Source: Argopecten irradians
Taxonomy: Eukaryota > Mollusca > Bivalvia > Pectinida > Pectinidae
Reading direction: 5' to 3'
NCBI RefSeq assembly: GCF_041381155.1
Contig: NC_091134.1
Coordinates: 5,322,255-5,386,254 of the forward strand
Length of the DNA: 64,000 nucleotides
In this document: positions 14,527 to 48,100 of the stretch, one piece after another
Position numbering within the stretch: position 1 is the stretch's first letter
Layout: each line of letters starts with the position of its first letter
The notes under the pieces: generated by a model
The model's database searches: none
What the model was told of the DNA's origin: nothing
What the model saw: the letters and a program-made list of their open reading frames with translations, nothing else
Program-made: the position numbers and the translations under genes

Positions 14527-15117
14527 AAATATTACCTGAAAAAAATGGATATGATATATATAGTTGGATATCGGATAGCATATAATACTATATATAATGC
14601 ATTATACTATTATTATATTAGGAATCACACATGTATATATTCATATTCCATTCAATACCCATATCAAATACATACCCGGCTATTGACCGACTCCTTTCAA
14701 CTTTCTGTTTCATTTTAGTTGGTCAGCTACCTTGGGTTGCTTTACATCAATAAATGAAAACAAATTAAAATCGTTAAATAGTGTTTATAGGGCATCTCAC
14801 TCTGATAGTTCATCTGACAGAAATAAAATTATTTAGATATTTTTGATAAGGATGGGTTTTTTATCAAAAGTATTATTTTATACGATAACTACCTGTGGAC
14901 AAACCAATGAATACGAAGTATACTTTCTCAGAAGATATACAGAGTCAATGAAGATGTTTGTTAAAGAAGTAATAGAAATGTTAACTTACCGGAACAGGGT
15001 TATTACACTACCAAGCAACAAACCCACTATCTAGCAGCATGTGTCCTTCTGTTCATCACAGACACTGACAAATCTCTGATTAAGGTACGATGGATAGCTG
15101 ACATTTAGGTAGACCAC

Positions 15118-16150
15118 TTGTCAGAAACCTTTGTCTTACACGTGTTAACAGTGTCTTACACGTGTCTAAACAATTAGGTAAACAATAGGTCAAAAACCTT
15201 TGTCTTACCCGTGTCTAAACAATCAGGTCAAAAACCTTTGTCTTACCCTTGTCTAAACAATCAGGTAAAAACCTTTGTCTTACCCGTGTCTAAACAATCA
15301 GGTCAAAAACCTTTGTCTTACCCGTGTCTAAACAATCAGGTCAAAAACCTTTGTCTTACCCGTGTCTAAACAATCAGGTTCAAAACCTTTGTCTTACCCG
15401 TGTCTAAAACAATCAGGTTCAAAACCTTTGTCTTACCCATGTCTAAACAATTAGGTCAAAAACCTTTGTCTTACCCTTGTCTAAACAATCAGGTCCAAAG
15501 CCTTTGTCTTACCCTTGTCTAAACAATCTGGTTAAAAACCTTTGTCTTACCCGTGTGTCTAAACAATCTGGTTCAAAACCTTTGTCTTACCCTTGTCTAA
15601 ACAATCAGGTTCAAAACCTTTGTCTTACCCGTGTCTAAACAATCAGGTCCAAAACCTTTGTCTTACCCGTGTCTAAACAATCAGGTTCAAAACCTTTGTC
15701 TTACCCTTGTCTAAACAATTAGGTCCAAAACCTTTGTCTTACCCGTGTCTAAACAATTAGGTCCAAAACCTTTGTCTTACCCTTGTCTAAACAATCAGGT
15801 AAAAACCTTTGTCTTACCCGTGTCTAAACAATCAGGTCAAAAACCTTTGTCTTACCCGTGTCTAAACAATCGGGTCCAAAGCCTTTGTCTTACCCTTGTC
15901 TAAACAATCAAGTTCAAAACCTTTGTCTTACCCTTGTCTAAACAATCAGGTTCAAAACCTTTGTCTTACCCGTGTCTAAACAATCAGGTTCAAAACTTTG
16001 TCTTACCCGTGTCTAAACAATCAGGTTCAAAACCTTTGTCTTACCCGTGTCTAAACAATCAGGTTCAAAACTTTGTCTTACCCGTGTCTAAACAATCAGG
16101 TCCAAAACCTTTGTCTTACCCTTATTTAAACCTTATCTTACCAAATCAGG
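15118..16150. repeat. 38-bp minisatellite, about 27 units, in NIDO copy 1
   Basis: Unit about 38 bp: AACAATCAGGTCCAAAACC then TTTGTCTTACCCGTGTCTA, with TC/TT and CG/CT variants. It lies downstream of NIDO exon 4. The partner array at 43,005-44,790 has about 47 units. Plus-strand frames through it are artefacts of the repeat. Confidence 0.92.
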
Positions 16151-16497
16151 TTCGAAACCTTTTATTCACACATCCTACTCAACAATCACTCATTCCACGT
16201 AAACAAATGTACATATGACACATTTAAAAGAACATAGGACAACATAAACATGGATGAACAATAGACATAGACATCACAAACATTATGTGCAACTTAATAA
16301 TTTGCATTTATGTTATTTATATTGTATTATTTCTGATTGATGTATTTTTTATTTTGCAAATCAAGTGTGTTGTGGAAAGAGTTAAAACGAAGTTTGGATA
16401 TTCTTATCAAGAATTTAATGGATTGGCCTAAACAGTACTTGTATTTGTATAACTAGCTTTGACTAATGTACAATTGATTACGAGAATGTCTACGTAC

Positions 16498-19400
16498 CGG
16501 CTAATATCTCATCTCGTGCTGGTATACTGCCATTCCCGTCTATACGGAAAATAAATTTGCCCGGGACGCCGGTGTTACTCCTACGTTCAAGATTGATTAT
16601 ATCTCCATGGTCAGTGTTGCTCAAAATGTAACTGGTAGTATTGTTACCAGCATTGAAACCGACCTGGATCGAGACATCGTCATGCAAAATAAATGTTTTA
16701 ACAATCAAGTCTTTCGGCTTCGTATTTATTTGATACTGAATTTCCGTTTGAAATTGTAAATCATTATTTAGCTGATTGGAAACGTCATGCCAGCCGAGGT
16801 TATATAAGTTGGCAATTCTCTAAAATACACCAAAATCCTAAAGTTATATTGCTACAAAATAAACTTTAAAAAATCGGAATTTGGCTTTATTTCATTAGGT
16901 TCGTAGACAGCCATTTGATTAAGGACCACACTTTCAGATTAAATCATATTACGGTAAAGTTATTTAGCTTTTATGAAATCGATTGCTAAGGAAATCAAAC
17001 GACGATTGATGAAGATATATTATTTTAAGTCCCATAACAAATACAATTGGTTTTAATCTTATTTCATGTATTTATCTATATCCATGTACTTTTAAATCCA
17101 TTGCTTATTATCCGTTATCATTCCAACCTATACAGATGTCAATATATTTAATGACAATATTTAAATTAAAAAAGTTCATAATTACATAGTTCAGTTAAAA
17201 AGGATTTTAGCATGTCTTTTCCTATAGTTCTTATATAATACGCAAAAATGTTAAAAAAAATGGTGCCAATTTACAAATATTTAATGCATATGGATTATAG
17301 CCCCATTGCAGGCCATTTATTTAGAAAATTATCAAAATTAAACCCCCTAGCAACTGATTTTATACCCTAGCAACCGAAAACCAATCTTCCTTTCGACCAT
17401 AAAAAACCCCCCAAAAACCCATTTTTTCATAAGTCAATTTCTAGGAAATGCAACGATACTTGGTATTGAAAATCGTATCAATGTTATGGCATATATCTGC
17501 GCTAAAAATCATAAAATAAAAATCCGTAGTGAGGCATCCATTTTTGTTAAATTACCGATCATATCAATATGCTTATTACATGTCAGCATTGATTTTTATG
17601 TCAGCATTGCTTATTATTTGTCAATATAGCTTATTATATGTCAATATAACTTATTATATGGCAGTTTTGCTTATTATATGTCAATATAGCTTATTATATG
17701 CCAGTATTGCTTATTATATGTCAGTATTGCTTATCATATTATCAGTATTTCTTATTTTATGTCAGCATTGCTTATTATATGTCAGCATTGCTTATTATAT
17801 GTCAGCGTTGCTTATTATATTATCAGTATTCCTTATTTTATGTCATCATTGCTTATTATATGTCAGTATGCTCATTATATGTCAGCATTGCTTATCATAT
17901 ATCAGTGTTGAATTGCTTATGATATATGTCAGCATTGCTCCCAAAAAACAAACCCATTTAACGAAACTTGCTGAACGGTGATATACTTGTTCAAATTCAC
18001 TCTAAATATTCTATAAAAAACGAACATTCAATCCATACTGACTATTTAGAATCCATGGTCTATGTGGTATAACGTAATTGTACCTACCGCCGATCGACAT
18101 GATCACGTCAAATGACTAAAACCCTAACGCCTTTTAAAACAGCCGAAGAGATAGGAGCATACATATTATCAGTGCTTAAGCAAGAAGGAAAATATCGGAA
18201 GGTGGACGAACTAAGCAACCCCACCTTTTTCACGACAATATACTAAGTTAACAATAATTTGATTGCTGTTGGACCTACCTGTGCTTTTCTATTATAGTCG
18301 CCAGGATACCCTGCCCATTCGATTTTCTGATAATGGAACATTGTAAAAGATTTGTCTCCGTCTGTCATTAAAACGACCTGAAATGTGTTTCTCTGAAAAA
18401 GTAACATACTTAATGAAATATATGACACAACGTGTTAATCTACGAATCTCCCTGGATTTTTAAGAGAAAAAAAACCCCAACAAAATCCTTCGGAAATAAG
18501 GCCAATCGAAGTCAAGATGGACGATCACAATTTGGAAAGTTTTGATAAAAAGCATATAAATTGAAAGTAACTTAAGTGGATCCCAATTTCACACGAGCAG
18601 AAGCTAACATTATCATGTCGATGTTGATTACGTCACGTAGCTAGTTTAATCTTTTCTAAATCTCAAGAGATCGGGTCGTGAACCTTCTTCGTCATCAATC
18701 ATAACTGCAGTCAATTGAAAATGAAACATTTATAAAGCTGTTTTGCCAACACTTGTAAGAAATAATTATTCGTATAAAAATATGGAAGATTATTACTGTG
18801 TTAATGACCTTTATCAGATCATGTCAGAACGATAAAAGTCAAATACATAGTTTGAATACTGTAAAACAACATTTTTTCGCGGATATTAAATTTCGCGATT
18901 TCTGTTTAAAAACAATTAAGTTCACGGAGATAAATATTCTCCGATTTAACAATTGACTGATAATTCCTATCAATATACAAGATGTAGATATTAATTCGCG
19001 GAGATCAACTTTCGCAAATTTACTTGGATCGCGAAATTCGTTAAAGTAAATCGCACGCGAAAGAAAGTTTGTTTACAGTATAATAGAATCGGTATCTTAT
19101 TCTACCTTATCCGCGTCGTCCCCCTCTGCACCATAGTACGGAACCTCCAGCCAGGTTGCTGTAAAAAACACTTGTCGGTTGGAATGTAGTTTGGTTGTCA
19201 TAGTAGTTAGCGATGTCCGTTTGGGCGCGGATAAGGATGTCTGAGTCGTTTGTTATCCTGTACCAGATTTGTCCGGTTGTAGTTGTTATAATATCCATCC
19301 AAAACACGGCGATCATTGGAATTGACAATGGGAATGGTTTGGGTACACTCCAGGCGCCTTCATCCGTGAAAGTTAAGAGTCCATTAGCGTGAACCTGTTG

Positions 19401-19694
19401 ACGAAAATGAGACATGGGAAAGCTATATCTTTATAATTTCGGCCAATTTAACACATCTTGTTTTTATAAGTTAAAAAGTTATAACAGTTTAGTACTTACG
19501 TGAACTGCAGTATAGTTATTCCCAAAAAACTTAAAACTGAACATGATGTCCGATGACCAACCGTCGTCTGTTTGGCACAACAGCTGGTCTTCCAATGGAA
19601 ATAGATAAGGATATGGGTACAAGTCCTGCTGAAGAATCCCCATGGCTACAGATTCAAATAATAAAGTCACAACGAGTGCAAGAATGTCAGCCAT
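16498..19694 (-). pseudogene. NIDO-domain secreted protein, copy 1, frameshifted in exon 2
   Basis: Exon 1 19,500-19,694 (ATG, signal peptide DILALVVTLLFESVAMG, then YPYPYLFPLED); exon 2 19,106-19,394 (VHANGLLTF, IPMIAVFWMDI, GQIWYR); exon 3 18,279-18,392 (NTFQVVLMTDGDKSF, IEWAGYPGDY); exon 4 16,498-16,663 (VGFNAGNNTTSYIL, INLERRSNTGVPGKFIFR). All four carry GT/AG sites, and together they form the NIDO domain of nidogen, SNED1 and tectorin-type extracellular proteins. Relative to copy 2, exon 2 has one extra A in a run near 19,165, making it 289 instead of 288 bp and shifting the frame before the ATWLEVPYYGAEG segment. Exon 4 ends at a GTACGT donor, so a further exon is expected but was not identified. 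It could still be functional if the extra base is a consensus error. Confidence 0.7.
17560..17945. repeat. 20-bp minisatellite, about 18 units, in a NIDO intron
   Basis: Unit about 20 bp, AGCATTGCTTATTATATGTC, with CAGTATT variants. The partner position in copy 2 (46,625-46,670) has only two to three units. A 150-codon plus-strand frame through it is an artefact. Confidence 0.88.
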
Positions 19695-20689
19695 AATCAA
19701 ACTGTGTTACAGAACCTATGTTAACAATGTTTTTGTCCGATATAACGTGTTGACCAAGTGTATGGTGTCCTCCCGGTGTACCCGGTGTAAAGATGGGTAG
19801 CTGTATAAACTGCCTGGAGTCGTGTGATCGTTAGTGTAACCTGTATCTGCTGACGTTGATTGGCTACGATATAATTACATGTATATCAGGCCAGGGAATT
19901 AACACCCGCCCTTATTGACCATATATGGTGTGCCTTCGCGTTATACTACATGTAATTAATTTAAATATATCAGTATCATCTCAAGTAAATACAAACCAGA
20001 TTCTGATTTTTTCTATATTTTATTTCCCCACTGAATGTATCCGGTATCCGAAGAGCCAATAAACAAACAAAATATTAGTCCGTTTCAACAAAAAGTCACA
20101 TACGTATGTGACTCTTAATGTGACTCTTAATACAACATATTATCTATGTAAAAATAGCATAAGGTTATCATTTTGATCATTTGTCAAAAATTTGGTATTT
20201 TTCCACGATTAAAAATATTACATAAAACATAAACTTTAAATAACTGCTACGTGGCCTACAATTACATCAATTGCATGAACAGCTGTATGTAATCATGTAA
20301 TGTTTTGCTTGTGTGAATCTGAACGACTAGAAAGGCTGCAGTCCGGTGTCTTCTTGTTACATTAGACATCTGCGGTTTTCAAAAAAGACAGACTAGGTAC
20401 GCGGATACGAGCGTGGACAACAGATAAATGGGAAATCGTCTTAAAAGCATTGTTTTACATTGTGTGTAACAAATGTGTTAAATACTCAATTATCGCGGCA
20501 AATATTTTATTTCAAAACCTAATTGTATAGTATAAATTAGTTATAAACAACGTCCAGACGGTAACAATGAATTTATAAACTATATATCTATATAAAAAAT
20601 AACAAAAAATTCGAAGCTCAATATTATTGGGACATTTTAACAGTGCTATGTCGCTAAAGCTTGCTACCAGAGATACAGAACAAGTACGA

Positions 20690-20885
20690 CCCAACCGGTC
20701 ATATTATATATTGACAATAGGCAAACTTGTCGTCCCACTGTCTTTACGCTGAGTGCTCGGCAGGAGCAGAAATTACCACTTTCATAGACGGAGGTGTGTC
20801 GCGGCCAGGGGACTAAACCTTGTTCCCTCCGTGCAGAGACGACTCAAGGCCAAAAGCCAGACGGTGTTGTTATTTAGAAATAAAT
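20690..20885. repeat. R1 SINE 3' fragment (partner 49,375-49,560)
   Basis: CAACCGGTCATATTATATATTG, then CGTCCCACTG, GCAGGAGCAGAAATTACCAC and GTCGCGGCCAGG, matching the distal part of R1. Present in both duplication copies, hence older than the duplication. Confidence 0.7.
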
Positions 20886-21545
20886 ATCTTTGTTACTTGT
20901 TATTCAAAAAGGATTAGTTAGATAACGAAGAACACTTAACATTTCATATACAGTATCTACGGTTAAAAGAATCTTGGGTAACAAATGCTTTAAAATCAAC
21001 TTCATTAAATGCATTAAACATATAATTTTTAAGTCGAGATGGCTGGTCGTTCGTGTATGTATAATTGGAAGGATATAGATACACTATACGGAAAGATGAA
21101 TATAAAATTAATTCGTTTTCTTCATCTGATGTAAATAGTACATTTTAAAAAATATGGCGACGTGGCTATTCTTCCCAATAAGACTCTATTTTAAAAAGTG
21201 GAGGATCCGGGTGCATGTATAAGGCCACATACACAACAATGTTAATATTTAAACTTTAATAACGTGTTCGTGCGTAAATAAAATCAAGAGATAAAGGGCT
21301 GTAAAAGAAAAAAAAACATAAATCCGGATCAAAATGAATGTTGATCTTTTGTCGAGAAATGCAAAATACGAACTTAATTTTTATTTCTAAAGCCTACCGT
21401 TTCGAAATAAAGAAAAAAATCTTTTTAGAGTTAAAGCAGTCGTATAGCGTTTGTGTTAATCTACCAATCTGTCTCAGTAATATTGATCAAACCTAACCTT
21501 CATTGACAGGCATGCAGCACATTAGTTGACAAGACCCTACTTTAA

Positions 21546-22800
21546 CATAAGGCATAAAGCCCCAAATTTTTTCAATGCGTTTTTGAATATTTTTCAATAA
21601 AGGCATTAGCCCATATTTTTACTATACATAGCTATTTGATCTTAATAAAGGCTTTTAGCCCTAATTCTAAAACTCACTTGTAGTGTCAATCAATATAAAA
21701 AAAAAAATTCTTGCATCCAGTTGGGAAATTTTTCAATAAAGGCTTTAAGCCCAAACATATCGAGTTTACAATTCAGCAGGAAATTGTAATGCAAGTATTC
21801 CTAATAAAGGCATTTGCCCACTCCTTCTGCCATAAAGATTTGATTGAATTGATTTGCAGAGGCAAGCTTTTAGGAAGTTAAAGATATACTGGGATAGCAG
21901 TCACAAGGATTTGTTCCAAGCTTTCAACATTATAAAGGTTCAATAAAGTCTAGGCCCATTTATGTTCTTCCATAGTTTCACAACTTTATGATTAAAGGAA
22001 GCTTCAGAAATAAAGGCATCTAGCCCAAACAGAATCTTTGAGCATTTCACAACTTTTGATTGAGGCATTTAGGGTATGGATGATTCAACATTTTAATAAA
22101 GGCATAAGCCCAACATCTTATACGCACAAACAAACAGATTCTTGGAGAAGATTACATCTTTTTGAATAAAGGCATCTAGCCCGTACAGGAACTTTGAGAA
22201 TTTTACAGTTTTGAATAAAGGCATCTAGCCCATATAGGAACTTTGAGTATTTTACATAATTTGAATAAAGGCATCTAGCCCACTAAGGAACTTTGAGCAT
22301 TTTACAGTTTTTAATAAAGGCATCTAGCCCATTAAGGAACTTTGAGCATTTCACACTTTTGAATAAAAGCATCTAGCCCATATAGGAACTTTGAGCATTT
22401 TACGCTTTTGAGTAAAGGCATATAAGCCCATTCAGGAACTTTGAGGATTTTACAGTTTTGAATAAAGGCATCAAGCCCATTTAGGAACTTTGAGGATTTT
22501 ACAGTTTTGAATAAAGGCATGGAGCCCATTTAGGAACTTTGAGCATTTTACAGTTTTGAATGAAGATATCATATCAAGTCCATTAAGGATTGTTAAGCAT
22601 TTTACAGTTTTGATACACAGCATCAAGCCCATTAAGTATTTTTGAACATTTCACAGTTTTTGAATAAAGGCATACAAGCCCGATAAGAAATTTCCAACTT
22701 CTGCAAGATTCAGCAACGCAATTATATGTTATTGCAGTGTTATGTAATACTTCAGCACACTATTTTTTTCAATAAAGGCTCCGACCAATCAGCTTAAAAC
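21546..22800 (+). repeat. About 50-bp tandem repeat carrying AATAAA in most units
   Basis: The consensus is TTTTGAATAAAGGCATCTAG, then CCCATTAAGGAACTTTGAGCATTTTACAG; it is regular from about 22,150 to 22,560 and looser on both sides. I count about sixteen AATAAA hexamers on the plus strand between 21,590 and 22,780, the same sense as WDR33, whose first visible exon begins at 23,145. It starts directly at the edge of duplication copy 1. Confidence 0.85.
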
Positions 22801-23144: not shown

Positions 23145-26100
23145 TTTTTGTCCAACGGATAATAAATTTGCGACATGCTCTGACGACGGAACAGTCCGAA
23201 TATGGGATTTTATGAAATGTCACGAAGAAAAAATTTTGAGAGGTAGGTCTGTCCGAAGCCCAGTAGGAGGGGAAAAACTGCCAAGAAACAACTCGCTTCC
23301 TCTTCTTATTGTCTAGATGTATTTATTTAAACCAACTCTTCTAAGGTATTTAAACTTGTTTGTTAACCATGATTGTACACAAGAAATATTAATGGTCTTT
23401 AGCTCAGACAGTGATGCTGTCCTGGCCACATGCAACAAGAAGTATGGCTTTGGAGTAGATTAAATTCTCACATCTATATAGGTTGTAATTTTAGATTATG
23501 GCAATCAGCAGATTAGATAGAATAAGTTACTATAGCAACCAAGAGAAAGGTGACAAAATGGACATAACATGGTTAAACACATGATGCCAACCATTATAGA
23601 AGAGGGAATGGAAGTACATTTGTACACATCATTAGAATACGCCAGGGAAACGCTACTCCTGTAAAGGGTTGACTTAATAACGTTTGCAGTTTTGGTTTAT
23701 TGTAAAACCAATTTATTTTTGGACTGACAAAATCAGTATGATAGAAGCGAAAAAGAGTTTTTAAGTCTTGAATATTGCTATTGACAATTAAAAATTGGAT
23801 ACAGAAAGCATTTTGTGTATGGGATACTGAAACTGTGGTTATAAATCATGCAGGATTTGATCTAGAATTGTAAAAATGTTACTCAGGCTTTGGCACAAAT
23901 ATAATTGTATATGAGGATTGTTATCTGCTGTAGGAATAGTTTTGTGAGGAAAATTTTTCATTTATTTCAAAGTAAGTGAAATTGAAGCCAATAAAGGGGG
24001 ATGGGCACTTATAGGAATGGGGGCGCTTACCTTGAGCATTTTAAAACTTAAAGGAAACAATGTGATGATGTGCCTTTATAGCATACATATGAAAAAGTAA
24101 CTGCAGCTAGGGCATCAACAGATAAAAAAAATGTATTAACATGAATAGGAATTTTAATAAAAACACAAAATGTATACTACAAAAATCATTTTTGCTATTT
24201 TGAAACTGCTATTTACAGTTTCAAGGGCACTATAGTTACATGTACTCTGCTAAAACATGTGTCTAGCAAACATTTTGATAAAATCACTCCAAAGGAAAGA
24301 AAACGAGAATACATGAATGTTTAGAACTCTTGAGGCTACTGAGGCTAGCTAGACTCGCCACGTCATTGCTGTCTTAGGGTCATGGAGCTGACGTCAAGTG
24401 TGTGGATTGGCACCGCTCCCAAGAAAGTGGTCTCATGCCCTCCTCACGGCGAGTAAGGTTATCCAGCAAGACATCAGCAACTGGAGGGAACCCAAGGCGG
24501 GCTCCTGTCTGGCCTCCACTGTAGGTAATTCTTGTTCATTTCTTGGCATGTATCGTTTGCAATCGTCAAAAATGTATGATTTAGCTTAGTTACTTAGTGT
24601 ATATGCTTTGTATGAAGTTTTTTCTTGGGTGATGTTGCTCCATGCGGTCCTCGCTAATTGGGTATTTTTATCACTATATAATTAAATCTGCGAGCAGACT
24701 CGTTATAGTGGTATTGGCGTTTTGGTTCAAGAATTTTTTTTCTTTTACACCATTACACACCATTGGAAAGTTTGAGCTTCTAGCTAATTTAACTTCAAGT
24801 TGAAATTTTACAAAAAAAATAATTTAATTGACATCTGTTATAAAAATCTGTGCACCTATATTCTACTATGGAATGTAAGTATCTGATTGCACATACACCA
24901 TAGGCAAAATAAATTTTTTTACATAAGGCCATGCAAGACTGACGTCACTACATGGTCAGAAACAAAAGATTAGGCCTTACGCGCCCACTGGTGGTCTAAA
25001 TTGGCTTGAGTTTACTAGAGAGCATATATTGAGAAAAATACAAGATATGTTTGATTCACTACAGACACCAGAAATGTCAAGCTGGAAAATTGGAAGACAT
25101 CATTGGAAAGGGAATAATCCCATCTCCATTTTTGATGTATGACATTTAAAGATCGGTTCGAAAATAAAGAACGAAATCATTTATTAAAAATTTACACTGT
25201 ACAGTTAATACAAAGCCAAACCACCAAAGTTAGACCAGCAGTGGGCAGGGCTTAATGATAGGGCCATTGTGACGTCACTTTTATTTACTGTATGAATTGG
25301 GCTTATTAATTTTTTTGTGTTAATTAGAACAAAATACACGATTAAACACCAATTATTGTTCAAGTGATGGATATAATTTATGGTCTGTCGAAGCTGGAGC
25401 ATCTTTGAAATGTTCATAATAATTTTAGACAGTGTTCCAGATTAAAATACGCATATATAGATTTTACCATCTGGCTATATTTGGCTATCTGTAATTTTCA
25501 ATCAGTAAAAAATCTGCAAAAATCAATCGGTAGCAGTGTTTTTAAATCTACAATATAATAGAATTATGCCGGATTTTTTAAAGTGATTTAGCTAATCATT
25601 GTTTGAACAGCCAAGCCCTGATGCCAAATTTCCTCATACCTTGACATTTTTTGCATAAAGTGACAAACATTTTCATAATCTGATTACAATAGAGATTCTT
25701 ATTCTAATGGAGGATAAAAAACCCTACACAATTACATCCTGATTGTGGTCACGTTGTAATGACTTCTATACTTACTCGCTTTGTTTCTGCTGAAGACAAC
25801 ATTTCTCCAAAGTGTATACATATATGCTGTGCTCTTAGGCCAAATTGACTACATACTAACGAGAATGATTCTCATAGCTCTTGTAAACTGTTTTTTCCTT
25901 GTCAAGAAATTGAGGAAGTTAGCATTTTTTGAAAAGGTCTATCACGATCACAATGACCCCATATAGGATGACTCCCCATAATACTTCACAGGGATTACCC
26001 TTTGTAGGATAGATAGCAGGGTAAAGATTAATCTCTATCTTACACAGGCGAGGGTGTCAGACAACTCATCACGCGCTAGAAAATTACGTATACAGACATC

Positions 26101-29100
26101 AATTACAGTGCGTGAACCTACTTTACCTGTTGCTAAAGTGCATTTTAAGTTGAACATCATCATATTTTGAGGTTATTAACTCAACATTCCGGCATAATAT
26201 TGTCACAACCGAAATAAGCTTGGAATAACAAACAGGAAATTTTCATCCTTTATGCTTTTCACAGTAGTTATGGACGTTAGGGAAAAAGAATAACTAAAAT
26301 GGGTCTGTCAAGTGGACTGTGATATCTCAACCCTCTTGAAAGATTTTGGCCATCAACCCTCGGTAAGCCTTGGGATGACAAGCCAAAATCTTTTCAATCG
26401 GGTTGAGAAATCCCTGTCTACTTGACAGACCCATGGAAGATTCTATTAATCCACAGAGTGGGGACCTAAAATAGGAAACATTGCCAAATTTAGGCTTAAA
26501 AGTCCTACTACATGTACTTCTTTACCCTTGAGTGGATTACAACCAGATTTGGTGTGAATACAACAGTATTGTATATAAACACAGCAGGTCTGACCCCAGG
26601 GGATGAGGGGTAGGTTTCCAAAATGAGAACATTGCTTTCATTTTCTACATCTCTTAATGACTCTGAGTGGATGTCAACCAAATATGGTGTGAAAGATTTA
26701 CAGAGGATGATTGTATTTTATGTGAATGGGGCTGGTCCAACCTCCTTCCAGGTGCAGAGGGGTGGGGCTCTAAAAGGGAACTTTGCTATGTTTTGTTTTA
26801 AATTACAATTTGTTTCACGCTTGCATGGATTACAGTGGGTCCAAAGGGGCAATTTTGGCTATTTCTATATGAAGATTTACTCTGAAACTTAGCACTGGAT
26901 AACACTCATATTGCATTGACACTGTAGCATCCTTATGGAGTACCATGGTGAGGATTCTAAATTGTACAAATAATTGGGCTTACCCCTGAGAGTTTGGGCC
27001 AAAAGGGGTTGATTTCTCTATTTCCAATTTTAATTTTACAAGCTCCATTTAACCTATTAGGAAACAATAGTTATGCAGGTTTCATGGAGGATAAGAAATC
27101 CCAAAAATAAATTTTTTAATTAAATCACTGTGGAATGTTTAAAACATATGTACAGACTAGAACCAAATGTGTTTCAAGCCGGAAATTCAATCACTGTGAA
27201 AAAATGATTTGGCAAAAAAAAATGTGAAATTTTGTGGTCACAAAAATTAGTTGAACCAATAATTCATATGGTAGAGTGTGTGTCCAGCATCATTTTGTCT
27301 ACACATTGAGGTTAGTCAAGGATTCCTGCAGTGTCTAGGACATGTAATATGTCATATTTTTCCAGAAGACATAAGCATTCATGCAACAACTTGCAGGGGA
27401 GACAATCCTTACAAGGCCTCGGCTGTTTTTAAGACAAATTAAACAACCAAAAAACATGGCAGAGCCTAGCACAGTGACAATAAAGGAGGGACATATTTTA
27501 GCCCGTCGGAAATTAATTTTTGATCCCTTTGACATTTGAATCATGAAATAACATATTGTACCATGATCTTAAGCTCTTTGTCTGACTAAAAACATAATTT
27601 TAGGCCGTTTTCATATTCCCTTGAATGACTTGCATCTCTTTTTTTGTTTCCATGGCATACCATAATTTTTGCAAATAAGCTAAATCATATTTGTCCACTA
27701 CCTCCTGATTGTGATGTTCTGATGACATCAGAGTAGTGTTATAAAATGGATGACATGGCGGAACATATGGTGTTACAGACATGCTCACAAAGGGACTGTA
27801 ATGAATCTGAAGTGGAATCAGAATGGTAACTGGCTGCTGACTGCCTCCAGGGATCACCTCATGAAACTGTTTGACATCCGTAATATGAAGGAGGAGTTCC
27901 AGACCTTCAAAGGACACAAAAAGGAAGCCACAGGTACTGTTAGGAATAAACTGTTATAGAGGATCATACATCATGAGTGGCTAGATAATATGAAATTTAC
28001 ATGAGTGTAAGATTCTATTTTATCACATAACTTGCTAGTATTTATGAAATTATAGACAAAACTTTTCATTTTATTTCTATATAAGATTGGCGAAATCAGG
28101 TTCCGATATTTATGACATGGCCGAATGTGTCAATTATTTGACAAATCACCTTTATCATATGGTATACCGTAAACACAGATGTTTTGTTGTGTCATATGTT
28201 AGCGGAAATTTCATGCAAACAAAAAACAAAACAAAAACATGAAAACTCCTAAGTGGTAAAATGTTCAACATTTTGACTACATATGGCCAATTGGCAAAAA
28301 AACCCATCCAGCTGCATTGAACTTTTAGTGCTGACAGTGGGGGGGCATGTGTTTTTTTCCTTCCTTTGTGGCTGAGTAATTATGGTGTTCGAACTATGAA
28401 ATAAGTTTGAATTACAGAGGGCAGTTGCCAGGCACTGACTGTTTCTTCAAGTACATTGACTTTACTTCCCCTCCTAAACCTTGCACAAATTACCCTGGCT
28501 GTTAATTTTATAGGATGTTAAACTAAAACAAAGGGAACAACTTTCTTTGACAACTCACAATTTAACCTTTAGCAAAACTCTGCATATTTTCAGATGAACA
28601 TAGCTGTGAATTGTTATGACCTTACAAACAATTGTAGAATTCCTAAATTTCATTAGATTAAATGGTTACATTTCTTTCTTGACTCTCCGATAGGTTTAAG
28701 ACTATTAACAAAGCTGATACATGTTATGACTTTACAGCTGTGGCTTGGCATCCGATCCATGAAGGGTTGTTTGTGAGTGGTGGATCTGATGGGGCCGTCA
28801 TGTTTTGGATGGTCGGGTAAGTCATGTCATATCACACGATATAATCTCAGGTGTCAGAAATGTAAAAATGTTTCATCATATTCAATGAGAAATTCCCTGA
28901 AGATAGCATTAACCAACAGTAGTTCAAAAACTTTTATCATCAAAAACTGATGATAAAAAGTACTTTATGACTATCATATGGTGTGTAATGTAGATGAATC
29001 TGGTAAATCAAGACATCAATCGAGAAAGCCCTATTCAATTTGAAGCATTTTAGTGACCTGGAATACACTTTATACTAGTATACTAGGTACAACTAACCTT

Positions 29101-32100
29101 GATACCCCAAATATCTTTTTAACAGTATTTATTGGCTTGGTTTGTGTTGTAGAACTGACAGAGAGGTTGGAGGAATGGAGGAAGCCCACGAGGGTATGGT
29201 ATGGAGCCTCGCCTGGCACCCTCTCGGTCACATCCTTGTGTCTGGCTCAAACGATCACACCACGTAAGTTAGCCAAGCACCCTCTAGTACGTCACGTAAG
29301 TTAGCCAAGCACCCTCTCGTTCACATCCTTGTGTCTGGCTCAAACGATCACACCACGTAAGTTAGCCAAGCACCCTCTCGTTCACATCCTTGTGTCTGGC
29401 TCAAACGATCACACCACGTAAGTTAGCCAAGCACCCTCTCGTTCACATCCTTGTGTCTGGCTCAAACGATCACACCACCTAAGTTAGCCAAGCACCCTCT
29501 CGATCACATCCTTGGTCTGGCTCAAACGATCACACCATGTAAGTTAGCCTAGCACCCTCTCGTTCACATCCTTGTGTCTGGCTCAAACGATCACACCAGG
29601 TAAGTTAGCCAAGCACCCTCTCGATCACATCCTTGTGTCTGGCTCAAATGTCTGGCTCAAAAGATCACACCACGTAAGTACTTCCTAAAATGTAACTGGA
29701 GAAGATGCGAAGCCTGTATTGAAAACTACCAGTGTATTCATTTAAGATTTGTTGAAATATAGGATTTCTTGTGTTTCTGAATGCTTTTGTTTAAATTGTG
29801 AAACAGGAAGTTTTGGACACGAAATCGTCCTGGCGACCGAATGAGGGACAAATATAACCTGAACACCTTACCAGGAGGGTCTGAGCATGAAATGCCTGAG
29901 TTTGGTAAGTGGGGGGAAAATGCCAATAAAAAAAATATATTTCTAAGAATAAACATTATTGGTGATAACTTCTTGCAAGCTATCATTAGAGCAGAGATTG
30001 TACGGTAAACATGCTGATACATGTTATGTATCAGCATGTTTACCAATTTCTTCTTAAAATTTCTTTAATTCTAAGCCGACCACCATAGTTAAGAGAGCTT
30101 GTATTTTAGGTCTGGTACGAATAAAACTTTAGTTTTGATAATCATTATTATCTTGAAGTACTGTGAGTGGATTTTTTGTCTCTTGTGTTAAACTTGATAA
30201 ACATTTACTTACAATTTTAAAGTTATCCAGACATTTTTGTGAGAAAAATCACACATTTAGGCACAGGGACAATTTGAATTGGACTGAAATGAGTACAAGT
30301 CTAAGGGATATCTGTTAAGTTGTTATTTAAGTGCTTGCAAAGTTTACAATCGAGTTTGATTAATTATATTATGTTGGTGTCATACAGAGCCTGACAACAC
30401 AGGACAAAGTAACATTCCAGGCATGGGTATCACTCCAGCTGATAAAATGATGAATGAACAGATCAACAAAAATCAAGGTAAGTCCAGACACACCCTTGAT
30501 CATAGTAATGAGCGAGTCCTAATTTGGTATAAATACATACTTGGCAAAAGATTGTATTGAATTTTAGGTAAAAAGAACTTAAATTGCCTATAATCTATTG
30601 ATATCTTACAGCGTAAAAGTTGACTCGGCTCTAAATAAATCTAATGTATGTTTGAATTTGTGTTGACAAGTTTTCGGTCCAATTTGGCATTGTATCAGTC
30701 AATAAAATGTATGAAATGACTGTATTATGAATGTATCTGTGTTTATAGAGACTGAAGGAGAAGATCTGCCATCCATTCCTGGTCTTGACTGGTCGGCAGA
30801 TGAACAGTTCTTTAGAGAACAACAGCTCCTCCGAGAAATACCGAAGAAAAAGATTCCCTACGCTCGCCCAATTCCCTGGGAATTTGAGCAGGCCTGGATG
30901 GTGAAACATACAGGGCTTTTAGTGCCTGACGGAGAAGGAGAGGAAGGAGCAGGAGGCGGAGGAAGTAGGGAAAAAAGGAGGGAAAGACGCAGAAAACAGC
31001 AAATGGAAAGAGGGGCTGATAATCAGCAAGGCTCAGGGGATAGTCAACCCAATAACAATCCTCCATCCTTAATGCAGCAAGGTTAGTGATAAATCTGTGT
31101 TACGTTTAGGTTTCTGTTTTAGGGGTGGGAATATAAAGGAATCATTCTGGTAATGGTGTAGGCTTTGTTAAATGTATGAGTAAGTGTTGAAAACGTTCAG
31201 ATTAAGCTAGGAAATTATTCAAATATGATGGAATGGATTTAAACTGACAAAAATACAGCATCATAAATGAACACAAAAAAAATTGGTGAAATCGTTTTGT
31301 TGAGAGATTGATAGGTTTGTAACAATTTTATTTTGATGCTGTAAATTTAAATTCAAAGATGTTATAGGAAGTAAAATATTTGAAATTACAGGAGCACCGC
31401 CCAACCAGATGATGGGTCCAGGGAACCAGAACAATAACCCTAACATGGTGCCACCTGGACAAGGCAATATGCCAGGTAGAGGGTTACTAGGCAACCAGCC
31501 AGCAGGATGGGGCCAGCAACAAGGTGGTGGATCCCAGGGAATGAGGCAACAGGGACCAGGACAGCAGCAAAATCAGGGCTTGCCACATGGTAAGCATCTA
31601 TATCCCCATCCCAGTTCCGTTTCAGGTTTGGGGTTTTATAAAGCTATTGAATCTGTGATTTTGGTTTGTTTAGTTTTAACGCCTATTAACTGGCTTGGAA
31701 GGGACAAAGCCCTCTAGTAGAGGCGAGAGCTTTAAGTCATGTAAAATGCTAATCGTTAGAAAGTATCTGAAAGATTTTTACCAAATTGAATTAAACAACT
31801 TTTGGTGAATGGGAACATGTTTAAAGTGTTGGACAAAGCAATTAAAAACACAGAAAAAGTTGGACAAAGCAATTAAAAACACAGAAAAGTGGGTAGTAAA
31901 TTCTTTTAAATCAGTTTGTAAAAATTAACTATTTTGCCATAATGAGTGCAATATCCTGGCATTCTTTAATTGCCCTTTGTGTGGTTTATTGCTTTGTGCA
32001 GTCTTATGAAAAGTTTTTTTATTTTGCAGGAGGTGGGAGATCCCAGGGATTGCTATCAAACCCTATGATGCAAAATCAAAATCAAGGTATGTAGTATCTG

Positions 32101-33417
32101 CTTTTTTATGTTATCTATACAAAGCAGGTGACTATAGGCATCCAGGAAATAACTCTTGATCAAACCAGAACACCATCAATGCACCAAAAGTATTTGCTTG
32201 GGTTTGATTTTCATCATTAATTGTCAAAGATCAATATCGCTTTTACCAAAAATAGAAAATTAAATTCTGTGAAATAAGGTTTCTGAATGCCTATTAAGAC
32301 TTTCAAAAACCCCTTTCTTACAAAAAATACCTGCTCGGGATTGCTTTTCATGACAGAAGGGCAAATGTCAAGGTTATCGTATCTAAGAATTAATTGTGAT
32401 AATTGAAGCTCTGTGGCTTTATTCAAATGGAAAGAACTGGCATGAATAGTATTTCAGGTAAAAAATTCTGAGGTCAAGTTCGATGACAAAGAATGTGACA
32501 TTTGTGAATTATATTCGATAACTGGTGTCTACTATGACTGTACGCTATTGCCATGATTTACAGGTGGTCAAGGGTTTCAGCAAAATGACCATGACTTTCG
32601 TGGTGGACAGTGGAATCAAGGGCAAGGTGGAAACCAAGGAAACTTTGGTAACAATGACATGCTTAATGATAACCAGTTCCAAGGTGACCAAGATTTTCGC
32701 AGTGACCAGGACTTCAGGGGAGACCAGGATTTCCGTAATCAACAACGGCAGCGGAATGATAACCATAATCAGAACTTTAATGATGGAGGTCAGGGATTTA
32801 ATCGCCGTGGAAACAACATGCAACGGGATGATAATCAGAGAGGTTTCCGTGGTAACCAGTGGGAGCAACAGCAAAGAGGTGGTAATGACAGAAACTCAAA
32901 CTTTGGTGGTGACCATGGTAATAGTAACTTCAATAACCATGGTAATGACAATTTCATGGATCAGGATGAGAGATTTGATGGTCGAGGCCGAGGAGGAGGC
33001 ATGAATCCGAGTCGTGGTAGGGGAAGGGGCCAGGACGAGAGGCGGCGTGGTCGTAGGAACGAAGGGGGGCATAACTTTGGGGGATCACAGGAGAACTATA
33101 GTAACAAGAGACATTGGGAGGAGGGGCCAGGGGATTACAGACAGCAGCAGGGAAACCAAGGTCCTTCAGACATGGATACAGACCAGTCAGGGGGGTGGGG
33201 ACAAAATAATCAGAGGGGAGGGCGGAATTTCTCAAGTCCTGGTCGGGGCGGTAATCGTGGTGGGAGGGGAGGGAGAGGAGGTGATAGAGGACGGGGTGGG
33301 GATAGAGGAAGGGGTGGGGACAGGGGGAGGGGTGGTGATAGGGGAGGACACAGAGGGGGATCAAACAGGGGTGGGGACTGGGGAGGGGGAAGAGGTTTTG
33401 GAGGGGGAGGCAGGTAG
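23145..33417 (+). CDS. WDR33: pre-mRNA 3'-end processing protein WDR33, lacking N-terminal exons
   Basis: WDR33 is a nuclear subunit of CPSF (mPSF) that, with CPSF30, binds the AAUAAA signal. Exons: 23145-23242, 24378-24520, 27779-27933, 28738-28816, 29153-29263, 29807-29904, 30388-30477, 30749-31081, 31392-31589, 32030-32086, 32564-33417 (stop TAG). WD40 blades show as [64 protein letters not shown], and [19 protein letters not shown] followed by [13 protein letters not shown]. Next come [20 protein letters not shown] and [19 protein letters not shown], the conserved WDR33 linker. The rest is Gln/Asn/Gly-rich and ends in RGG repeats. Splice phases agree from the third exon onward; the first two junctions do not (see exon 24378-24520). 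About 740 codons are visible. The N-terminal part of human WDR33, which contacts the poly(A) signal, has no counterpart in this window. Confidence 0.93.
24378..24520 (+). CDS. WDR33: WDR33 second visible exon, frame-inconsistent
   Basis: It opens with [11 protein letters not shown] in one frame, but the matching continuation of the blade ([11 protein letters not shown], then [10 protein letters not shown], against the family pattern SKDSQQPIKFW, PKTGQSLAT) lies in another frame, and the exit phase needed by the next exon (HAHKGTVM) is the first frame again. The junction from the previous exon (phase 1) also gives the wrong frame unless one G is surplus. Several single-base errors in the consensus, or a damaged exon, would explain this; all neighbouring exons are clean. 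Confidence 0.6.
25130..27770. other. WDR33 intron: repeats, no exon seen
   Basis: Holds a copy of the AATTATTGTT repeat (25,310-25,430), the inverted-repeat element at 26,297-26,435, and several blocks of a GGGGT-rich dispersed repeat (26,580-27,010) with one 89-codon open frame of no recognisable kind. No segment here matches WDR33. Confidence 0.5.
26297..26435. repeat. Inverted-repeat (fold-back) element in a WDR33 intron
   Basis: Left arm GGGTCTGTCAAGTGGACTG, TCTCAACCCTCTTGAAAGAT; right arm ATCTTTTCAATCGGGTTGAGA, CTACTTGACAGACCC. Arms of about 50 bp around a spacer of about 30 bp. No coding sequence. Confidence 0.75.
29200..29685 (+). repeat. 61-bp minisatellite repeating a WDR33 exon end plus its splice donor
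   Basis: The last about 50 bp of exon 29153-29263 (coding [16 protein letters not shown]) and the following GTAAGTTAGCCAAG are repeated downstream with a period of about 61 bp. GTAAGT donors follow the repeated ATCACACCAC at 29264, 29296 (short unit), 29357, 29418, 29539 (after CCAT), 29600 (after CCAG) and 29674; the unit at 29479 reads CTAAGT. The first unit joins correctly in phase to exon 29807-29904. Confidence 0.92.
30004..30044. repeat. Near-perfect short palindrome
   Basis: GGTAAACATGCTGATACAT is followed within two bases by ATGTATCAGCATGTTTACC. Arms of 19 bp in a WDR33 intron; would form a tight hairpin in RNA or DNA. Confidence 0.85.
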
Positions 33418-34624: not shown

Positions 34625-35375
34625 GGTCAGTAAACAGGTGTAAGAGTGAAACTCATTGATCCATGGCCTTCATGTCACGGCACAGTAAACATGTGTTAGG
34701 ATGAAAGTCAATGATCCATGGTCTTTATGTCATGGTACAGTAAACATGGGTTAGAGTGAAAGTCAATGATCCATGGCCTTTATGTCACGTGTACAGTAAA
34801 CAGCGTTAGAAATGTGGAAAGTCAATGATCCATGGCCTTTATGTCACGGTAAGTAAACTATGCTTAGAAGCAATGTGTTAGAATGAAAGTCAATGATCCA
34901 TGGCCTTTATGTCAACGGTACAGTAAACATTTGTGTTATGTAGAGTGAACATGTGTTAGAGTGAAAGTCAATGATCCATGGCCTTTATGTCACGGTACAG
35001 TAAACATGCGTTAGAGTGAAAGTCAATGATCCATGGCCTTTAAGTCACGGTACAGTAAACATGTGTTAGAATGAAAGTCAATGATCCATGGTCTTTATAT
35101 GTCATTGTACAGTAAACATGTGTTAAAGAGTGAATGTCATTGATCCATGGCCTTTAAGTCACGGTACAGTAAACATGTGTTAAGAATGAAAGTCAATGAT
35201 CCATGGTCTTTATGTCACGGTACAGTAAACATTTGTTAGAGTGAAACTCATTGATCCATGGTCTTTATGTCACGGTACAGTAAACATGTGTTAAGAATGA
35301 AAGTCAATGATCCATGGCCTTTATGTCACGGTACAGTAAAACCTGTGTTAGAGTGAAACCCATGGCCTTCAGGTC
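34625..35375 (+). repeat. 55-bp tandem repeat, about 13 units, downstream of WDR33
   Basis: Consensus GTCAATGATCCATGGCCTTT, ATGTCACGGTACAGTAAACA, TGTGTTAGAGTGAAA. Units vary by small indels. No open frame is preserved. Confidence 0.9.
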
Positions 35376-41110: not shown

Positions 41111-41811
41111 CTGATATAGGTATAATTGTATCCCGAAGAATTCAGCCTACATTATAACATATCATTGCTGATACTGAACACACTAACTTAGTTATGCTTT
41201 GTCATGTTATCACTACACTACATGAATGGAACGCTCTCATCTTTTTAGAATTAATGTATGCTACACACTAATGTATATCAAAATATACAATGAAAAGAGA
41301 TAAAGAATAAAGTATGAAAATAAAACGTATGCATCTGCATGGAGAAAAATATTATCAAATGGAACAACAGATGATTTTGCAAAAAATGTTGGGTTTGATC
41401 TTTTCTCGGTGTGTTGCAATGGACACCCAAATAAACAATTGAATTGTTTTAAAAGTATTTTGAAACTCGTATGATGTTGTGTATGTCTTGACACTACGAG
41501 CTGGAATTTGGATTTACCTAACTGATTTATACGTGACTGTCCAAAACATGATCACATACATTTCAGGCAAAATCTTATAGGCCAGTTATGGTTAAAATCT
41601 TGTGCTTCCATGAACGAACGAAAGGATTTATTCCAACTGTCTTTGAAAATAATCTAGTTATTTCTTACATAGTCATAGTTACTGCAAGGAAATAGTTGCA
41701 ACAAATACTCCAAAGCAGATTACATAAAACTTCTTTCTCAGGCAATGCGACGGTGTGGGTATTACAAAAGAATTTACGGTAACTTTTAAATATCTTAACG
41801 CAAATATAACC

Positions 41812-42425
41812 AACTTCGCTAGCCAAGGGTACAGTAGTCTACGATGTTGAATCCTTGGCAGATGTCACTTCAAAACTGAAGTTTCCGCACAGCGCCACCT
41901 GTTGGATCACGGCATTTACGTAATAAGTAACCAATGAACAAGTTCGAATCATTGTTGTATGGATTGTCCTTTGAAATGCACATGTTTTTTGCGACAGATT
42001 CAAAATACCAAAAACAAACATGTTGTAACACCGGTTATTGTGTTTCATGCTCCAGTGTCCAATTTTGTCAGGAGATCGCAATTTATCTTTTGTTGAACTT
42101 TGAGAAACAGAAACAACATAAGTATTTACTTTCCTAATTTCTTTGGAGAACAACGTATCCAAGTACTTCATTAAATGATTGACTAAATAGTAAATATGAC
42201 TCCGCTAGGAGGTGTTGTTGACAGTCATGATACGCTTCAATTTACAAATGTAGGTCACTACAATCACTTCGGTTTGGTTTATTTGACATATAAAAACTGC
42301 GTTTTCATTGGTCGCATGAACGGATACAATCAGAATTTGAAAGCGGGAACTTCAATTTTGACACGACATCAGCCAAAGGTTGCCGGTAGAGTTTCGGACT
42401 GATTACCTTTGGCTAGCGAAGTTGA
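41812..42425. mobile_element. TIR element (partner at 13,922-14,526)
   Basis: Ends CAACTTCGCTAGCCAAGGGT and its near inverse ACCTTTGGCTAGCGAAGTTG. Contains an open 110-codon minus-strand frame with no domain I recognise, broken in the partner. Confidence 0.6.
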
Positions 42426-43004
42426 CATATGGCCTGATAGTTTAAAATGGAGATAATATATATAGTTGGATATCGGAAAGCATTTAATACTATTTATAAT
42501 GCATTATACTATTATTATATTAGGATTCATACATGTATATATTCATATTCCATTCAATACCCATATCAAAACATAACCGGCTATGGACCAACTCCTTACA
42601 ACTTTCTGTTTCATTTTAGTTGCCCAGCGACCTTGGGTTGCTATACATCAATAAAATGAAAACAAATCAAAATCGTTAAATAGTGTTTGTAGGGCATCTC
42701 ACTCTGATAGTTCATCTGACAGAAATAAAATTATTTAGATATTTTTGATAAGGCATTATTTTATACGATAAATACCTGTGGACAAACCAATGAATACGAA
42801 GTATACTTTCTCAGAAGATATACAGAGTCAAGGAAGATGTTTGTTAAAGAAGTAATAGAAATGTTAACTTACCGGAACAGGGTTATTACACTACCAAGCC
42901 ACAAACGCACTGTCCTGCAGCATGTGTCCTTCTGTTCATCACAGACCCTGACAAATTTCTGATTAAGGAACATTGGATAGCTGACATTTAGGTAGACCAC
43001 TTGT

Positions 43005-44790
43005 TAGAAACCTTTGTCTTACCCGTGTCTAAACAATTAGGTCCAAAACCTTTGTCTTACCCGTGTCTAAACAATCAGGTCCAAAACCATTGTTTTACCC
43101 GTGTCTAAACAATCAGGTCTAAAACCTTTGTCTTACCCGTGTCTAAACAATCAGGTTCAAAACCTTTGTGTGACCCGTGTCTAAACAATCAGGTCCAAAA
43201 CTTTGTCTTACCCGTGTTTAAACAATCAGTATCAAAACCTTTGTCTTACCCGTATCTAAACAATCAGGTCCAACACCTTTGTCTTACCCGTGTCTAAACA
43301 ATCAGGTCCAAAACCTTTGTCTTACCCGTGTCTAAACAATCAGGTTCAAAACCTTTGTCTTACCCGTATCTAAACAATCAGGTCCAACACCTTTGTCTTA
43401 CCCGTGTCTAAACAATCAGGTCCAAACCTTTGTCTTACCCGTGTCTAAACAATCAGGTCCAACACCTTTGTCTTACCCGTGTCTAAACATTCAGGTCCAA
43501 AACCTTTGTCTTACCCTTGTTTAAACAATCAGGTTCAAAACCTTTGTCTTACCCTTGTCTAAACAATCAGGTCCAAAACCTTTGTCTTACCCGTGTCTAA
43601 ACAATCAGGTCCAAAACCATTGTCTTACCCGTGACTAAACAATCAGGTCCAAAGCCTTTGTCTTACCCTTGTCTAAACAATCAGGTTCAAAACCTTTGTC
43701 TTACCCGTGTCTTAACAATTAGGTTCAAAACCTTTGTCTTACCCGTGTCTAAACAATCAGGTCCAAAGCCTTTGTCTTACCCGTGTCTTAACAATCAGGT
43801 TCAAAACCTTTGTCTTACCCGTGTCTTAACAAACAGGTTCAAAACCTTTGTCTTACCAGTGTCTAAACAATCAGTTCCAAACCTTTGTCTTACCCGTGTC
43901 TAAACAATCAGGTTTAAAACCTTTGTCTCACCCGTGTCTAAACATTCAGGTCCAAAACCTTTGTCTTACCAGTGTCTAAACAATCAGTTCCAAACCTTTG
44001 TCTTACCCGTGTCTAAACAATCAGGTTGAAAACCTTTGTCTTACCCGTGTCTAAACAATCAGGTCCAAAACCTTTGTCTTACCCTTGTTTAAACAATCAG
44101 GTCCAAAAACTTTGTCTTACCCGTGTCTAAACAATCAGGTTGAAAACCTTTGTCTTACCCGTGTCTAAACAATCAGGTCCAAAACCTTTGTCTTACCCTT
44201 GTTTAAACAATCAGGTCCAAAAACTTTGTCTTACCCGTGTCTAAACAATCAGGTTGAAAACCTTTGTCTTACCCGTGTCTAAACAATCAGGTCCAAAACC
44301 ATTGTCTTACCCTTGTTTAAACAATCAGGTTGAAAACCTTTGTCTTACCCGTGTCTAAACAATCAGGTCCAAAACCTTTGTCTTACCCGTGTCTAAACAA
44401 TCAGGTCCAAAACCATTGTCTTACCCGTGTCTAAACAATCAGGTCCAAAGCCTTTGTCTTACCCTTGTCTAAACAATCAGGTTCAAAACCTTTGTCTTAC
44501 CCGTGTCTTAACAATCAGGTTCAAAACCTTTGTCTTACCCGTGTCTAAACAATCAGGTCCAAAACCATTGTCTTACCCGTGACTAAACAATCAGGTCCAA
44601 AACCTTTGTCTTACCCTTGTCTAAACAATCAGGTTCAAAACCTTTGTCTTACCCGTGTCTAAACAATCAGGTTCAAAACCTTTGTCTTACCCGTGTCTAA
44701 ACAATCAGGTTCAAAACCTTTGTCTTACCCGTGTCTAAACAATTAGGTCCAAAACCTTTGTCTTACCCTTATTTAAACCTTATCTTACCA
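43005..44790. repeat. 38-bp minisatellite, about 47 units, in NIDO copy 2
   Basis: Same unit as the array at 15,118-16,150 but about 20 units longer, with higher-order blocks of several units visible near 44,000-44,400. Open frames through it are artefacts. Confidence 0.92.
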
Positions 44791-45172
44791 AATCAGGTTC
44801 GAAACCTTTTATTCACACATCCTACTAAACAATCTCTCATTCCACGTAAACAAAGGTACATATGACACATTTAAAAGAACATAGGACAACATAAACATGG
44901 ATGAACAATAAACATAGACATCACAAACATTACGTGCAACTTAATAATTTGCATCTATGTCATTTATATTGTATTATTTCTGATTGATGTACTTTTTATT
45001 TTGCAAATCAAGTGTGTTGTGGAAAGTGTTAAAACGAAGTCTGGAGAATTCTTATCTACAAATATAATGGATTGGTCTAAACAGTACCTGTACGTGTAGA
45101 TGTATTTTTGACTAATGCTAAGCACAAACAAATTATAAATCTGAACAATTGATTACGAGAATGTCTACGTAC

Positions 45173-48100
45173 CGGCTATTATCTCATCTCCCGCTGGTAT
45201 ACTGCCATTCCCGTCTACACGGAAAATAAATTTGCCTGGGACGCCGGTGTTACTCCTACGTTCAAGATTGATGATATCTCCATGGTCAGTGTTGCTCAAA
45301 ATGTAACTGGTAGTATTGTTACCAGCATTGAAACCGACCTGGATTGAAACATCGTCATGCTAAATAAATGCTTTAAAAATTAAGCCATTGGGCTGCGAAT
45401 TTATTTTGAGACTAAGATAACGTTTGAAATTGTGAATCATTATTTCGTTGGTTGGAAACGTCTTTTTTACAGCCGAGGTTATATATGGTGGCAATTCTCT
45501 AAAATTCCTCAAAATGGTAAAGTTAAATTGCTACAAAAAACTAGAAAATATTGGAAATTTGGCTTTATTTGATAAGGTTTAACGGTTCATCGAAAGCCAG
45601 TTTCTTAAGGACCACGGTTTAATATTAAAACATATTAAAGGGATGATTCAGTGAGGCTAATTCGTTACATAACCACGAAGCAAAATGTGACATAAATGTA
45701 TTGTTCCACATTCCTTATGAAACATGACTAGAACAAGTGACAAATTCAACAACATTGTTAAGTATTTTGATTAATACCATTGAAATTCCAAACGTTGATC
45801 AATACGATTAAGCAGGTAGAACATGTACGATGTACCCATACCCGAGCCAAAGTCACGTACGTTAAACAAATGCAATACATAACCACTGAGGAGTTGATGA
45901 CATATCTATTTTTAGATAAGAACATGCATCTAATAATGTTTACACAACTGTAAGAGCGATTTGAGTAGTTCTAGACAAAAAATTATTTACTATACAGGCA
46001 CGGGTCAGGGTTCGGCATACAAGGCTATGTGGAATGGCGATTGAACATTTCACATACATTTGACTACAGTGGGCTTTTCTGACATATCACAGTAAAACCA
46101 ACTAATATAATTTTCATTAGAACTGGTTTGTTTCCGAAATCTGTGCAAGTTTTAATGTAATCTTAGACTGAATTGTCACTTTAAGGTAATCTTAAAAGGT
46201 TATTTGGTTTTATTGGAGTCGATTACTAAGGAAATCGAACGAAGATTTATCAAGATACACCCCCTAGTCTCATCAAAGCTTTAATTGGCATTGACCAGGA
46301 CTGCATATTATGGATTTATCTAGATTCCTGTAGTTTTTAAATTCATTGCGTTATCATACAGCCTAAACAGTTTGCAATATATTTAATTAGAGCACTATAA
46401 GCAAATAAGTTCATTGTGTTGTAACTGCTATTATTTTTAAAACAAATACATTAATTTAGTTCAGTACAATGTACAGTAGTCATCTTAGTCACATGATTTA
46501 AGCGCATGAAGAATTGTATCCCTTATTATTAAACTACTATCTTAAAGAAGGCCTCGAATCTGAATGCTATGTTTTGCTAACAAATGTGTATACAACAGTA
46601 TCATGTAAATTGGGGCGTACCAGAATTGCTTATTACATGTCAGCATTGCTTATTATATGTCAGTATTGCTCCCAATAACCAATAATAATAAATAAATTCT
46701 TCTAATAAAGACGAACACTCCTTACTAACGATTGTACCTACCGCCGACCGACATGATCGAGTATGATGACTATAACCTTCGCCTTTTAAAACAGACGAGG
46801 AGATAAAAGAGCATACATATTATCAGTGCTAAAGCAATAAGGACTTTGAAATTGGAAAGTATCGGACGGTGGGCGAACATATCAACTCCATCTTTTACAC
46901 GACATAAAATAACAATAATTTGATTGCTGTTGGACCTACCTGTGCTTTTCTTTTATAGTCGCCAGGATACCCTGCCCATTCGATTTTCTGATAATGGAAC
47001 ATTGTAAAAGATTTGTCTCCGTCTGTCATTAAAACAACCTGAAACGTATTTCTCTGAAAAAGAAACATACTTAATGAAATATAACGACACAACGATTTAA
47101 TCAACGAATCTCGAAATTTCGAAGAAAAAACCCAACAAAATCCCTCAGAAACAAGCTTACAGTATGTGATGCAAGCAACACACGCCCCCTGTCATCAATT
47201 GCATTTTCTAATCTATGGCAAGTTATTATTGCCTAGTTATGTTCATTGTATGAATTTTGAACAATTTCTGTTGATGTGTCCTCAAGTTATCGTCCGGAAC
47301 CGTAAACTTGTGAAACAAAATATGTTTAATATATTGATCTTTGTAGTTGACCTTTTGACTCCAAATTCAACCCCAAACTGTATTTTCTCATATGCTACAA
47401 TTGTGTGAAGTTTGATTAAAATCCGTTTATTTTATTGTCTTAAGTTATCGCCTGGAAAAGATTTTTTTTAAACAATCTATTTGTAGAAACAAATTAGATC
47501 CCAAGTTGTGTTTTCCCATATGCTACCTTGTGTGAAGTTTCATCAAAATTATCATCCATTAGTACTCAAGTTATCATCTGGAAACCAGTTCCGGACAGAC
47601 ACACACAGACGGATGGACTTCGGTTTCAATCATAACATTTATAAAAACGTTGTACCAACACTGGTAAGTAATCATTATTCGTATAAAAAAATAAATATAG
47701 AAAACTAGATATTACTTTGTTAATGACCTTAACCAGATCATGGCAGAACCATAAAAGTTATAGTTTGAATATAATCGAATTGGTATCTTATTCTACCTTA
47801 TCCGCGTCGTCCCCCTCTGCACCATAGTACGGAACCTCCAGCCAGGTTGCTGTAAAAACACTTGTCGGTTGGAATGTAGTTTGGTTGTCATAGTAGTTAG
47901 CGATGTCCGTTTGGGCGCGGATAAGGATGTCTGAGTCGTTTGTTATCCTGTACCAGATTTGTCCGGTTGTAGTTGTTATAATATCCATCCAAAACACGGC
48001 GATCATTGGGATTGACAATGGGAATGGTTTGGGTACACTCCAGGCGCCTTCATCCGTGAAAGTTAAGAGTCCATTAGCGTGAACCTGTTGACGAAAATGA

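Follow-up and report, generated by a model that had tools for sequence, protein, structure and literature searches.

A minisatellite that repeats a WDR33 exon end and its splice donor in Argopecten irradians

In the 64,000-nucleotide stretch of Argopecten irradians DNA analysed here (the window), a coding exon of a WDR33 gene runs directly into a minisatellite whose units repeat the end of that exon together with its splice donor, and among the intact donors that then stand in a row before the next exon only the first keeps the reading frame. We consider it reasonably probable, though by no means secure, that this minisatellite was founded by a tandem duplication of the exon/intron boundary, that the first donor (donor 1) wins by exon definition and that some splicing leaks into nonsense transcripts.

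Results

The exon with the duplicated 3' end (29153-29263, plus strand, 111 nt) lies between a WDR33 exon at 28738-28816 and the next one at 29807-29904, both also on the plus strand. By tblastn these three are 83%, 74% (to human residues 329-359) and 85% identical to human WDR33, respectively. When the array-bearing exon and its downstream neighbour are joined, phmmer matches them to three solved WDR33 chains with E values of 1.6e-38 to 2e-38, the best stretch being query residues 2-64 at 118.7 bits; chain 2ymu_A (a WD-40 repeat protein) reaches a higher summed score, spread over 14 domains of at most 19.4 bits each. Judged by these matches, exon 29153-29263 codes for part of the WD40 propeller of WDR33, a CPSF subunit, and the WDR33 identity that a first-pass annotation of the window had given to this exon and its downstream neighbour is borne out by phmmer (E ~2e-38) and tblastn. 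The same annotation had put the acceptor at 29,806, which did not hold up: the acceptor exon begins at 29807. The preceding intron (28817-29152) is 336 nt long, the following one is 543 nt long when counted from the donor at 29264, and with that donor the joined frame is open from 28738 to 30477.

TRF reports the array at 29293-29648 with a period of 61, 5.9 copies and 96% matches; cutting at each donor and aligning the units places it at 29264-29673 on the plus strand, with seven units of 32, 61, 61, 61, 60, 61 and 74 bp and a total of 410 bp. A full unit consists of the 8-bp intron start (GTAAGTTA) followed by 53 bp that match the exon tail at 29211-29263; the first unit is 29 bp short of full, and the last contains a 13-bp internal duplication. 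Compared with the 53-bp exon tail, 50 positions are identical in five of the seven units and 48 in the unit at 29479. TRF and the unit alignment agree with the earlier description of a 61-bp unit that duplicates the exon end and GTAAGT, the exon part (put there at about 50 bp) being 53 bp. The locus is a tandem array at an exon end with the donor sequence in its units, as expected of a candidate multiple-donor minisatellite.

GTAAGT is intact at seven of the eight donor positions, and the earlier count of six or seven intact donors in a row before the next exon resolves to seven. As located by cutting at the donor, they read CAC-GTAAGT at 29264-29269 (donor 1), 29296-29301 (donor 2), 29357-29362 (donor 3) and 29418-29423 (donor 4), CAT-GTAAGT at 29539-29544, CAG-GTAAGT at 29600-29605 and CAC-GTAAGT at 29674-29679 (the last donor), all on the plus strand; the broken position on the same strand, 29479-29484, has CTAAGT. 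The last donor is followed by ACTTCC, whereas the others have TAGCC. Outside the array the plus strand carries about 0.12 GTAAGT per 410 bp, and no other 417-bp stretch on either strand has more than 2; between 29264 and 29806 there are 7, whereas 1000 dinucleotide shuffles of that interval average 0.22 and never exceed 3. Chance does not account for the number of donors in the array. Tandem repeats are often mis-sized in assemblies, and for this general reason the array might be an assembly artefact, but it is just 410 bp long in all, and it combines three identical units with others set apart by private changes, a shortened first copy or an internal duplication of 13 bp, a pattern that random read error would not yield; we judge an artefact very unlikely.

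The relationships among the copies bear on where the array came from. All six full units depart from the exon at the same sites: the exon's GGT, which codes for the glycine in WHPLGH, is GTT or GAT in them, and its GCCTGG is GCCAAG or, in one unit, GCCTAG; this second site is also changed in the short first unit. Because these differences are common to six units, the full units descend from one founder that had already diverged from the exon. The exon itself appears not to have been overwritten by the units, its glycine codon having been kept. Three adjacent units are identical, which suggests a recent expansion and hints, in this single sequence, that unit number may vary between individuals, a length polymorphism that the first-pass annotation had thought probable. 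The donor at 29674 is probably the ancestral intron start, and an intron without the array would span 133 bp. The history that we propose is as follows: a tandem duplication in the WDR33 gene would have joined the intron start (GTAAGTTA) back to the exon tail beginning 53 bp upstream, and the duplicate would then have grown as a minisatellite, taking the intron from roughly 133 bp to 543 bp, while selection would maintain the true exon and donor 1 and leave the copies to drift as intron.

The effect of the array on the reading frame is uniform. With donor 1 the exon is 111 nt long and the intron 543 nt, and among the seven donors this is the only one that leaves the frame open to 30477. Translation from each of the six downstream donors, which make exons of 143, 204, 265, 386, 447 or 521 nt (the intron that remains is 207 nt for the donor at 29600 and 133 nt for that at 29674), ends the protein at ...SGSNDHTT* through the TAA at 29265-29267. 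The exon ends in ACC AC and the intron starts with GTAAGT, so any longer exon reads ACG TAA. The first-pass annotation had predicted a TAA from use of any donor except the first, and the stop is there in all six; its added argument, that 61 is not a multiple of three, has no bearing, because the TAA sits in frame straight after the exon end in every case. Two-step splicing within the array would give an open frame in 3 of 147 donor/AG/donor combinations (a raw count, in which the AGs were taken without a polypyrimidine-tract filter). Since only donor 1 of the seven gives an open frame, it must be used at least in part if the gene works.

Which donor would win the competition that the first-pass annotation had proposed? 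Scored by U1 pairing, the seven exon donors up to 30478, where the scoring ended, gave -10.1 (23243), -4.8 (24521), -7.1 (27934), -11.1 (28817), -5.4 (29264), -8.8 (29905) and -10.3 kcal/mol (30478). Donor 1 is the second weakest of these and matches the consensus at 8 of 9 positions, and the decoy at 29600 has the strongest pairing of all that were scored (-11.8 kcal/mol) and a 9/9 consensus, so donor strength speaks for 29600 and against donor 1. Nor does accessibility explain a choice of donor 1, because in the fold model only 29600 is less accessible than donor 1, and accessibility peaks at the last donor.

Proximity points the other way. Among human donors of near-equal strength, the upstream site is preferred in exon-defined exons with both introns longer than 250 nt, a preference also seen in minigenes where identical donors compete under exon definition, according to the accessible text of PMC9225289. 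The introns that flank the array-bearing exon, at 336 and 543 nt, both exceed 250 nt, so under exon definition proximity favours donor 1. Donor 1 would probably be picked in this way, as it makes the smallest exon between those two introns, and at 53 nt it is the donor closest to the purine-rich half of the exon (purines make up 69% of 29153-29210 and 38% of the duplicated tail). The likeliest leaks would be from the donors at 29600 and 29674, which stand 207 and 133 nt upstream of the following exon, and would yield nonsense mRNA subject to decay. The same source also reports that, when human events are taken without a strength filter, the downstream donor is preferred in about 60% of them and in all four intron classes; where a long intron precedes the exon and a short one follows, it finds the downstream donor favoured even at near-equal strength (PMC9225289). 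That layout would apply as seen from the decoys at 29600 and 29674, and these findings, together with the dominance of the stronger donor in most human events, count against our reading of donor 1; the human rules of donor choice may also not hold in the source species.

These considerations lead to an alternative in which the decoys are much used as unproductive splicing, so that the length of the array, together with the perfect donor at 29600, would set the share of WDR33 mRNA that goes to nonsense-mediated decay. It would fit the identical early stop from six of six downstream donors and the perfect consensus at 29600, whose 207-nt intron is within the intron-definition range, as well as the human data in so far as they make strength usually decisive, the stronger donor being dominant in 86% of events (PMC9225289). 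But the donors from 29539 to 29674 would make exons of 386 to 521 nt, and smaller exons are preferred in human, again in the accessible part of PMC9225289; there is also no sign of selection for the array, one of whose donors is already broken. We give this alternative a minor but real share of the probability. A related proposal is that an array of decoy donors with variable copy number controls how much of the poly(A)-signal reader WDR33 is made, every added unit bringing more intron and another nonsense donor, and that alleles in nature are graded for exon- versus intron-defined donor choice within one gene; this strikes us as quite unlikely. We favour use of donor 1 by exon definition with some leakage.

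In another alternative, the WDR33 copy is itself a partial duplicate or one in decay, and the array would have no fitness consequence. The first-pass annotation had spoken of an essential gene; the identity as WDR33 stands, and we are less sure of the adjective for two reasons. First, tblastn detected no exons for human WDR33 residues 1-208 in positions 1-23143 of the window. Second, the exon at 24378-24520 is odd: its start resembles WDR33 in its own frame and its later part does so only in another frame (24440-24517, a weak match of 42% across 26 residues with an E value of 3.9); with the borders as modelled, it is also one base out of phase with the exon before it (23145-23242), and the join runs into a stop within four codons. 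A direct duplication that flanks the WDR33 exons (13356-21547 versus 41253-50237) could likewise be taken to favour a decaying duplicate. The 5' exons may, however, lie beyond the window, and exon 24378-24520, read in the frame in which it starts, stays open and continues so through the five next exons to 30477. Of the alternative GT-AG borders tried, six also allow a stop-free join between it and the preceding exon; they lie within 23225-23270 and 24340-24425 and gain or lose few residues. The other propeller exons found, five in number, share 74-96% identity with human WDR33, and 32557-33417 contains an open frame of 286 aa. Open exon frames are present at 23145-23242, 27779-27933, 28738-28816, 29153-29263, 29807-29904 and 30388-30477, and stop-to-stop frames, given without set exon borders, are open around 30715-31086, 31337-31717 and 32557-33417. 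We lean towards 5' exons outside the window together with locally poor sequence or an imperfect model, rather than a damaged copy, and regard a decaying duplicate as unlikely.

Several other features were seen in the window. Fourteen tandem stretches summed from the TRF table cover about 10% of it, and the array would have expanded in a neighbourhood rich in tandem repeats. A 55-bp minisatellite (TRF) occupies 34628-35363, about 1.2 kb beyond the end of the last WDR33 open frame, and at 4590-5211 a 48-bp unit is repeated 13 times at 96%, is open on the minus strand and has flanks with relatives near 51100. In the segmental duplication on either side of the WDR33 exons the two longest pieces are 89% and 97% identical, and both copies carry a minus-strand nidogen-like (NIDO) frame and an array of one 38-bp unit (about 25 and 46 copies). 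An open frame on the minus strand at 57095-57631 matches Ninjurin (Pfam PF04923, E 3.9e-8). No known RNA families were found in the window, nor any tRNAs in a scan run with bacterial settings.

Discussion

A minisatellite that provides several splice donors is already in print, for human IFI6, and the present one is not new in kind. Turri, Cuin and Porter reportedly described in 1995, in Nucleic Acids Res 23:1854, a minisatellite with multiple splice donors in that gene (also called 6-16 or G1P3). The WDR33 unit is 61 bp long, includes 53 bp of conserved coding exon and leads to an immediate stop from each downstream donor, whereas units in IFI6 are about 12 bp long and extra ones add amino acids. 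In IFI6 two downstream repeat units are reported to act as donors, giving three mRNA species in the accessible text of PMC4526556; downstream use has been reported there, and the WDR33 array is known here from its sequence.

Two further studies describe related events. Internal tandem repeats at exon-intron boundaries were surveyed in human duplicated genes by De Grassi and Ciccarelli 2009 (PMC2812944), where the repeats are discussed with new introns and cryptic splice sites and the main text never uses the term donor. Intron gain by tandem genomic duplication has been described for potato RdRp in the accessible text of PMC4974935, and the two cases are alike in that a tandem duplication in a coding gene changes splicing; they differ in that WDR33 gains no intron, one that was already there becoming longer and having its donor multiplied. 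Among the matches listed in our literature searches, which covered mainly freely accessible papers, there was no exon-derived unit in which all of the extra donors lead to nonsense, and the matches listed likewise included nothing on splice control of WDR33 (isoforms or autoregulation).

In an active gene, the array would offer a natural counterpart of donor-proximity minigene experiments, with exons of 111 to 521 nt and introns of 543 to 133 nt in one transcript, and its donor series straddles the 250-nt line that has been proposed between intron and exon definition (PMC9225289). If the gene is active, each of its transcripts would have to find the single productive site among the seven donors, although the one with the best consensus is poisonous.
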